A stretch of DNA of 64,000 bases from Myxococcus sp. RHSTA-1-4 (GTDB taxonomy: Bacteria; Myxococcota; Myxococcia; Myxococcales; Myxococcaceae): NCBI RefSeq assembly GCF_020037125.1, contig NZ_JAIQDG010000015.1, forward strand, positions 62,001 through 126,000, in the 5' to 3' direction. The notes below the pieces were generated by a model. The model did not search any database. It was not told the origin of the DNA and worked only from the letters and a program-made list of their open reading frames with translations. Shown here piece after piece: positions 337 to 2,725 of the stretch (positions within the stretch are counted from its first letter, which is position 1; every line of letters starts with the position of its first letter). The position numbers were made by a program, and so were the translations under genes.

Positions 337-1182
337 ATGCGAAGGCTCGTCCTGCTCGCCCTGCTGGCACTCCCTGGCTGCTTCTACCCCGCCGACCGTG
401 GCCGCGCCCTCGAGGCGAAGGTGGACCGGCTCGGCGCCGACACCGCCCAGATGCAGTCGCAGTTGAAGGAGGCGCGAGAGCAGCTCGCCGCCACGCTGCC
501 CAAGATTGACGAGAAGGTCGCCGAGGTCACCAAGGCCCTCCAGGGCCTGGACACCGCCGCGCGCCGCAAGGACGCGGACATCGGCATCCAGCTCCAGAAG
601 TCCGTGGAGGACCTGGCCCAGCTCCGTGGCCAGGTGGAGACCTACCTCCACAAAATCACCGAGCTGGAGACCGCCCTCGCCGAGCAGGACAAGAAGCTGC
701 TCGCGCTCCAGGGCACGGAGGCGGTGAAGGAGGCCGAGGCGAAGAAGAAGGCCGAGGAGCTCCAGCGCCCCACCGACAAGAAGGAGTTCCTCGCGCTGGC
801 CCAGGAGAAGGCCAAGGCGGGCGAGGTGCTGCTGGCGCGCCAGCTCTACACCGAGTTCCTCAAGAAGTGGTCCAAGGACCCGCTGGTGGGCGACGCCCAC
901 TACGGCCTCGGCGAGACGTACTTCAGCGAGTCCCGCTGCCGCGAGGCCCTCTTCGAGTACGGCAAGGTGGTGCAGGAGCACCCGAAGGCGTCGACCGCGC
1001 CGGACGCGTACCTGCGTTCCTCGGAGTGCTTCGCCAAGCTGAAGATGAAGGATGAGTCGCGGCTGGCGCTGGAGGAGCTCGTGAAGGGCTACCCGAAGTC
1101 CGCCGCGGCGAAGACCGCGAAGGAGCGCCTCGCCGAGCTGGACAAGGCGGCGAAGACTCCCGCGAAGAAGGGGAAGAAATGA
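337..1182 (+). CDS. CpoB/YbgF-like lipoprotein with coiled coil and TPR domain
   Basis: 281 residues. The N-terminus is a lipoprotein signal (hydrophobic stretch ending LLALPGC, lipobox Cys15), so the mature protein should be lipid-anchored in the envelope. Residues ~25-150 are heptad-rich and strongly charged, a predicted coiled coil. Residues ~155-265 carry tandem TPR-like helices (LARQLYTEFLKKW, AHYGLGETYFSESRCREALFEYGKVV, DAYLRSSECFAKL). The order lipid anchor, coiled coil, TPR is that of CpoB/YbgF, the periplasmic partner of the Tol-Pal system that coordinates outer-membrane constriction with peptidoglycan synthesis. No tol or pal gene is nearby, so this could be a paralogue. The C-terminus is Lys-rich. 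Its stop overlaps the next start (ATGA at 1179-1182), so the two are translationally coupled. Confidence 0.75.
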   Translation: MRRLVLLALLALPGCFYPADRGRALEAKVDRLGADTAQMQSQLKEAREQLAATLPKIDEKVAEVTKALQGLDTAARRKDADIGIQLQKSVEDLAQLRGQVETYLHKITELETALAEQDKKLLALQGTEAVKEAEAKKKAEELQRPTDKKEFLALAQEKAKAGEVLLARQLYTEFLKKWSKDPLVGDAHYGLGETYFSESRCREALFEYGKVVQEHPKASTAPDAYLRSSECFAKLKMKDESRLALEELVKGYPKSAAAKTAKERLAELDKAAKTPAKKGKK

Positions 1183-2324
1183 ACCTGCGTCCGACGCGGC
1201 TCGCCGCGCTCGCGCTGCTGCTCCTGCTGCCCCTGGTGGCGGGCGCGGCGCCGAAGCAGCTCGTGCTGCTCTTCACCGGAGACAATGGGGGCGAAATCGC
1301 CCCCTGTGGTTGAAGGCACAACCCGTCTGGCGGTCTGGCCAGACGAAAGATGGCGCTTGAGAAGGAGCGCGCGAAGGGCGTGCCGGTGCTCGTGCTGGAT
1401 GCGGGCAATGCGCTCTTCAAGAGCCGTGACAGCGGCGAGGCGCCGGACGCGAAGGCGCGCGCGGAGCTGCTGCTGTCGCAGATGGACGCGCAGGGCACCG
1501 CGGCCATGGCCGTGGGCGCGCGCGACCTCGTGCTCGGCGTGGACTTCCTGAAGAAGGGGACGAAGAAGGCGAAGCTGAAGCTGCTGTCCGCCAACCTGGT
1601 GGACGGCGAGGGCAAGCCGTACTTCCCCGCCTCGCTGGTGACGGACGTGGGCGGCGTGAAGGTCGGCGTGGTGGGAGTGTCCCCCGCCACGGACAAGCCG
1701 CAGCCCGCGGGGCCGGCCGTGAAAGGGAAGCCTCAGCCGATGATGCAGGGCCTGCCGGTGCAGTCCGCGGTGGCGGCCGAGGCGAAGCGCCTGCGCGAGC
1801 AGGAGAAGGTGGACGTCGTCGTGCTGCTGGCGGCGGTGCCCTACGACGAGGCCTTCCGCCTGGCCGAGCGGGTGGAGGGCGTGGACTTCGTGGTGCAGTC
1901 TCACGACGGCCGCGGCGTGGGCGTGGCGCAGCGCCAGGCCTTCGCCACCGTGGTTCCGCCGGGAGACCGGGGCCGGCAGCTCGCCCGCCTGGAGCTGGCC
2001 CTCGACGGGCCCGGCCGCTTCGCGGACATCTCCGAATTGGAGCGGACGCGGCAGAGCCTGGGCATCGTGGAGACCAACCTCGCCAAGGCGAAGGAGAAGC
2101 TCGCCGCCGCGGCGGATGCCACCACCCGGCAGTCCTACGAGCAGGCGGTCGCCAGCCTGGAAGCCCGGCGGACGGCCCTCAAGCAGGTGGCGGAGGGGGG
2201 CGCAACCGGCGCCGCCCGCACGCATCTGTTGTCCTACATCCAGCTCGGGAGCGAGGTGCCGGGGGACCCGGCCGTCCAGAAGCTGGTGGAACGCATCGAG
2301 CCTCCTGGCTCGGCGGCCCACTGA
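1179..2324 (+). CDS. Secreted 5'-nucleotidase/metallophosphoesterase-family protein, probable selenoprotein (UGA at 1311-1313 = Sec45)
   Basis: Translation from ATG 1179 gives a clear signal peptide (hydrophobic core [13 protein letters not shown]) and then [12 protein letters not shown], where an in-frame UGA (codon 45) interrupts an otherwise continuous reading frame. The frame resumes with [18 protein letters not shown] and runs to a stop at 2322-2324. GGLARR is the N-terminal signature of the UshA/5'-nucleotidase superfamily, so the homology spans the UGA, and a start at 1350 would remove the domain's first strand. Cys homologues of this branch, as I recall them, read PCGC at this point, so UGA replaces a Cys. 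A SECIS-type hairpin follows immediately (separate entry). With Sec the product is 381 residues. The usual metal ligands (DxH, GDxxD, GNHE) are altered (DNG, DAGN, GARD), so a redox rather than nucleotidase role is possible. Residues ~280-350 are helical and Lys/Ala-rich. Confidence 0.85.
1311..1345 (+). promoter_or_regulatory. Bacterial SECIS element (Sec UGA plus hairpin)
   Basis: The UGA is at 1311-1313. After ten bases, a perfect 8-bp stem CGTCTGGC (1324-1331) / GCCAGACG (1338-1345) closes a six-base loop GGTCTG (1332-1337). The loop starts with GG followed by U, the feature that SelB recognises. The E. coli fdhF SECIS apical loop likewise contains GGUCU. The first loop G is 19 bases after the UGA, inside the spacing known for bacterial SECIS elements. 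The hairpin lies wholly inside coding sequence, as required in bacteria. Confidence 0.85.
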
Positions 2325-2434: not shown

Positions 2435-2725
2435 ATGAAGCCCGAAGTTCACCCCGTCTATCCGCCGTCCCGCATCACCTGTGCGTGCGGCAACGTCGTG
2501 GAGACGAAGTCCACCCGCGGCTCCTTCTCGGTGGAAATCTGCTCGAACTGCCACCCCTTCTTCACGGGCAAGTACAAGCTCGTGGACACGGCCGGCCGCA
2601 TCGACCGCTTCCGCAAGAAGTACGCCGCCACCCCGGCCAAGGCCGAGGCTGCCCCGGCCGCCGAGGGCGCCGCTGCCCCCGCCGCGAAGCCGGCCGCCAA
2701 GAAGGGCAAGAAGGCCGAGGCCTGA
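2435..2725 (+). CDS. rpmE: 50S ribosomal protein L31 (RpmE)
   Basis: 96 residues. The N-terminal ~65 residues match L31: [20 protein letters not shown], then a [22 protein letters not shown]-like core and [10 protein letters not shown]. The Cys pairs CAC and CSNC show the zinc-binding (C+) form of L31, which sits at the ribosomal central protuberance bridging the subunits. After residue ~67 there is an Ala/Pro/Lys-rich tail of about 30 residues, a low-complexity extension beyond the usual L31 length. The start at 2435 is chosen because it follows GGAGAGAG and gives the canonical N-terminus. The frame is open further upstream, but that part lacks similarity. Confidence 0.96.

Follow-up and report, generated by a model that had tools for sequence, protein, structure and literature searches.

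A short, haem-free UshA-like protein encoded beside a ybgF/cpoB-like gene in Myxococcus is very probably a selenoprotein

The window analysed here, a stretch of 64,000 nucleotides from Myxococcus sp. RHSTA-1-4, carries near its start a gene that very probably encodes an exported selenoprotein, with the UGA at 1311-1313 decoded as Sec45. The evidence for this is comparative: the UGA column among homologues, a hairpin behind the UGA that is conserved along with it, and the selenocysteine (Sec) machinery of the genome. The selenoprotein family itself is already known; the novelty lies in a short myxobacterial branch, haem-free and linked to ybgF, that falls outside the present NF041198 model. The features of the locus are:

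337..1182, + strand: coiled-coil/TPR lipoprotein gene, YbgF/CpoB-like (tol-pal system type), with TIGR02795 and TPR Pfam matches
1179..2324, + strand: UshA-like gene, very probably a selenoprotein gene; 381 residues with Sec45, stop TGA 2322-2324
1179..1250, + strand: probable signal peptide, residues 1-24 (hydrophobic run ending VAGA-AP)
1305..1313, + strand: Cys43-Gly44-Sec45 (CGU) motif; C-G-(C/U) in 90/90 homologues
1311..1313, + strand: UGA read as selenocysteine, on comparative evidence
1324..1345, + strand: bacterial SECIS hairpin, stem 1324-1331/1338-1345, loop GGUCUG 1332-1337
2435..2725, + strand: rpmE (ribosomal protein L31), downstream; TIGR00105 91.1 bits, above cut-off

Apart from the single in-frame TGA the frame from 1179 to 2324 is open, and the start, internal UGA and end given in an earlier note, made from the sequence alone, are all exact. 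Start codon ATG 1179 and the stop codon of the gene before it overlap as ATGA (1179-1182). Downstream, rpmE is probably functionally separate from the UshA-like gene.

A genome search found homologues in 127 of the 145 genomes of the order. A copy with a single internal TGA occurs in all 27 genomes of the genus and in most of the family, and a UGA copy is present in 88 genomes. Among 90 retrieved copies the CG[U/C] column holds TGA in 70 and Cys in 20, with no third residue; in every TGA copy retrieved the internal TGA falls at this same column, and family homology continues on both sides of it. These counts support the proposal of the earlier note that Sec takes the place of the second Cys of a CGC motif, giving CGU. 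When placed on a tree, the Sec/Cys label changes eight times, and at least six of these changes are forced by well-supported branches (the deepest joins, on long branches, are uncertain), implying that Sec and Cys were exchanged several times. Short Cys paralogues also occur in Archangium, Pyxidicoccus and relatives (L048-L061), where they coexist with a Sec copy in the same genomes.

The hairpin starts 10 nt past the TGA and has eight perfect pairs and a GGTCTG loop, exactly as had been described. The 53-nt stretch that holds it has an MFE of -21.4 (z -2.5), and when codons for the unchanged peptide were sampled according to family usage, 0.14% of the random draws produced a stem of 8 bp together with GGU at these positions. 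An Rfam search of the locus gave chance matches only, and the SECIS was therefore assessed by comparison. GGU stands at the start of the loop in 69 of 70 UGA genes and in 0 of 20 Cys genes, against a background of 155 GGU among 2709 Gly codons (~6%), and the contiguous stem measures 5-9 bp in all 70 Sec copies versus 2-4 bp in 18 of the 20 Cys copies. In a set of 39 distinct Sec hairpins pairing holds for 86% of the stem cells, and sliding the partner strand by 1-3 nt leaves only 22-42% pairing. None of 2000 shuffles gives as many two-sided pair changes (11 cells), but 47 of them reach the observed number of extra pair types, which is therefore not clearly above chance. Compensation is directly visible in L092 (CTCGGC-GGTCTG-CCGAG) and L101 (GACGGGC-GGTCTT-GCCCGTC), while the second stem pair from the outside, unpaired in 30 of the 70 Sec copies, counts against the structure. 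Altogether, the comparison of homologues supports a SECIS just downstream of the UGA with GG(U) in its apical loop, a hairpin that SelB would recognise so that the UGA is decoded as Sec45.

The earlier note had also proposed looking for selA, selB, selC and selD. By its named relatives the source genome groups with Pyxidicoccus/Myxococcus, Pyxidicoccus fallax (88%) being the best named match. In the source genome (11.2 Mb, 134 contigs) selA (561 bits), selB (320 bits with both pieces; cut-off 242), selD (374 bits) and a tRNA-Sec (72 bits; tRNA-SeC according to ARAGORN, anticodon tca (UCA)) are all present. Because the selD match contains one in-frame TGA (G000:C22:156955-157884, L108), SelD is, judging by its sequence, probably a selenoprotein itself. 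Detection of selA follows the Sec copy across genomes: it was found in 86 of the 88 genomes with such a copy, and the two others, G050 and G124, are incomplete MAGs (80% and 87% complete), of which G050 still shows selB and tRNA-Sec. Five genomes have a Cys copy only (G054, G077, G092, G129 and G144; G046 is not one of them, since it carries a Sec copy, C230), and four of these lack selA, although G054 is only 79% complete. With counts made by hand from the homologue and selA searches, Fisher's test gives p 2.5e-5, a value that is optimistic because related genomes are not independent. The association is imperfect, owing to the two selA-less Sec genomes and to G129, which has a Cys copy only yet retains selA and selB.

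G077 is a complete two-contig genome with a Cys copy (L047). The searches there gave only a spurious selA match (E 1.9e-4), a selB match below the cut-off, and a best tRNA-Sec match of 46.8, just below the gathering score of 47; its congener G078 has selA, selB and tRNA-Sec, and shows similar sub-threshold tRNA-Sec matches beside a true gene at 71.7. The Cys gene of G077 adjoins the same ybgF-like gene, so this locus is the orthologous one. G077 thus looks like a recent loss of the Sec trait in a group whose other members keep the machinery. Taken together, the UGA/Cys column, the GGU loop, the machinery and the selA association leave the claim of Sec insertion very well supported.

The suggestion that the selenoprotein is new-looking has to be given up at the level of the family. 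UshA-like COG0737 CxU selenoproteins were listed in a GOS survey in 2008 (76 Sec and 92 Cys sequences; PMC2398784) and again in a 2022 review (PMC9312934), and a 2026 review lists both NF041198 and family 2, NF049981 (CxxU) (PMC13188914). The protein encoded here has the same COG0737 (UshA) homology with CxU. Its best NCBIfam match is NF041198, 'UshA-like (seleno)protein' PCGU (191.7 bits, E 2e-56), but the cut-off of 275 is not reached, the alignment spans positions 16-374 of 519, and nothing anywhere in the source genome matches above that cut-off; in Pfam, the protein has no match above cut-off. The N-terminal domain and the PCG[U/C] motif, in which Sec replaces the second Cys, are common to both. 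Long NF041198 members, however, have a multihaem CxxCH C-terminal part, whereas the short myxobacterial form has no CxxCH at all, so that the protein in the window falls short of the full model length, and unlike NF041198 members it is linked to ybgF/cpoB. The long forms carry three to four CxxCH after the UshA-like domain, with Cys in L165, L171 and L175 and Sec in L168; L175 (four CxxCH) and L172 (multihaem) both exceed the NF041198 cut-off. The same genome also encodes a long PCGC paralogue with four CxxCH (G000:C44:155014-156396, L202), apparently a haem-bearing Cys counterpart. NF049981 has a related N-terminal region (34 bits, far below its cut-off of 140), its motif being CxxU as opposed to CxU here. 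Among open-access papers, we found none describing the myxobacterial form and none of relevance on myxobacterial selenoproteins.

To consider the chemistry we used an AlphaFold2 model with Sec entered as Cys (pLDDT 94.3, pTM 0.91). Against known structures the model gives Z 31 to 5'-nucleotidases and Z 30 to SoxB (range 30-32), and a profile search of PDB sequences finds the same families (2z1a, E 1.4e-22). The predicted fold is thus the metallophosphoesterase fold of UshA, ecto-5'-nucleotidase (CD73) and SoxB, bearing out the 5'-nucleotidase fold proposed earlier. Compared with those proteins, the one encoded here has lost most metal ligands and gained the CGU loop. We take the dinuclear metal ligands to be D41, H43, D84, N116, H217, H252 and H254 (UshA numbering), and mapped their columns in 40 homologues via the PDB-profile alignment. 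The sole invariant column is the D41 equivalent: the H43 position is Gly or Arg, N116 is variable, H117 is Arg, H217 is mostly Ala, D84 mostly Asn and H254 mostly Gly or Phe, with His kept at the H252 position in 21 of the 40. The dinuclear ligand set of 5'-nucleotidase and SoxB is therefore not retained, in agreement with the degenerate metal site noted before.

Cys43 and Sec45 are the sole thiol and selenol in 64 of 69 mature Sec proteins, which, together with the ligand loss, favours a redox pair over metal hydrolysis, though Sec might still ligate a metal. With most metal ligands gone, the fold probably acts as the framework on which thiol/selenol redox chemistry takes place in the cell envelope. 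Sec45 and Cys43 would pair up as a CxU of the selenylsulfide/dithiol type, placed in the loop that follows the first beta strand and near the metal-binding place of 5'-nucleotidases, and Cys could replace Sec in this pair. Because long relatives fuse the domain to four CxxCH motifs, electron flow between CxU/CxC and haem is suggested there. We lean towards a thiol/selenol redox protein of the envelope whose scaffold is a dead metallophosphoesterase. The redox enzyme built on a phosphoesterase fold that the earlier note put forward is a reasonable proposal, one inferred from the motif, from the loss of ligands and from the fusion to haem in relatives.

The neighbourhood invites a narrower version of this function. 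The upstream gene matches TIGR02795 (tol_pal_ybgF) with 82.8 bits, just below the cut-off of 90.1, and almost every Sec locus, down to ~37% identity, has a ybgF-like gene next to the UshA-like one, a neighbourhood conserved in Myxococcaceae as well as in distant relatives. The ybgF-like gene of L162 and L164 is immediately preceded by a gene for a Pal/OmpA lipoprotein; in the source genome a Pal-like gene lies ~10 kb upstream (107.8 bits to Pal_lipo; cut-off 125). Since the short form has no haem part and its start overlaps the YbgF/CpoB-like gene, the protein of Myxococcaceae may, speculatively, act where Tol-Pal operates in the envelope and exchange electrons with a separate partner. More specifically, it could assist envelope constriction by Tol-Pal/CpoB as a redox-active accessory that, for example, senses oxidised thiols there or repairs them; the ATGA overlap, the conserved neighbourhood and the two loci with adjacent Pal speak for such a role, but this evidence is synteny only, and the Cys paralogues examined in Archangium, Pyxidicoccus and others are not beside ybgF, so that we regard it as possible but doubtful.

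Between the Pal-like and ybgF-like genes of the source genome lies a chemotaxis-type cluster (L110:1691-13182 in G000:C41, reaching the window start) with two MCP-, CheA-, CheB- and CheR-like genes, the names being read from sequence. It looks as if inserted into a tol-pal operon, and cheB/cheR beside ybgF recur across Myxococcaceae.

An active metal-dependent nucleotidase or SoxB-like hydrolase, with Sec as metal ligand or nucleophile and S-S or S-sulfonate bonds as possible targets, seems unlikely to us. SoxB acts on a carrier-protein cysteine, and such a function would fit the clear fold match to 5'-nucleotidase and SoxB (SoxB model match, E 2e-14) and the invariant D41 equivalent. The replacement of the H43, N116, H117, H217 and H254 equivalents and the mostly Asn D84 position nevertheless argue against it, and the chain ends too early to include a C-terminal substrate domain like that of 5'-nucleotidases.

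Finally, a UGA acting as a true stop, leaving either a pseudogene or a gene for a short peptide, with translation restarting at ATG 1350, is very improbable: ATG 1350 does open an ORF of 324 aa that a standard gene caller would probably report, but the UGA is kept in 88 genomes, the 44 codons ahead of it (including PCG) are conserved along with the hairpin, Cys stands elsewhere at its column, it tracks selA, and a start at ATG 1350 would lose the first strand of the predicted fold. The internal TGA in those 88 genomes likewise led us to reject a pseudogene or a sequencing error.

The selenoprotein reading gives a near-universal selenoprotein in an easily cultured lineage (Myxococcus, Corallococcus, Pyxidicoccus), and its subfamily would escape NCBI's model at the current cut-off. 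It also offers a natural Sec/Cys experiment, with several switches and, usually, loss of the Sec machinery where Cys alone remains. The combination of the two makes the function of UshA-like selenoproteins, and the retention of Sec in aerobes, testable in a genetic model. It is conceivable, though we would not expect it, that part of the reason why predatory, aerobic myxobacteria retain their Sec machinery is a haem-free, metal-free selenol redox enzyme with a phosphoesterase fold that serves the Tol-Pal/CpoB envelope system specifically; if true, this would be an undescribed function that depends on selenium, in constricting the outer membrane or repairing envelope thiols.
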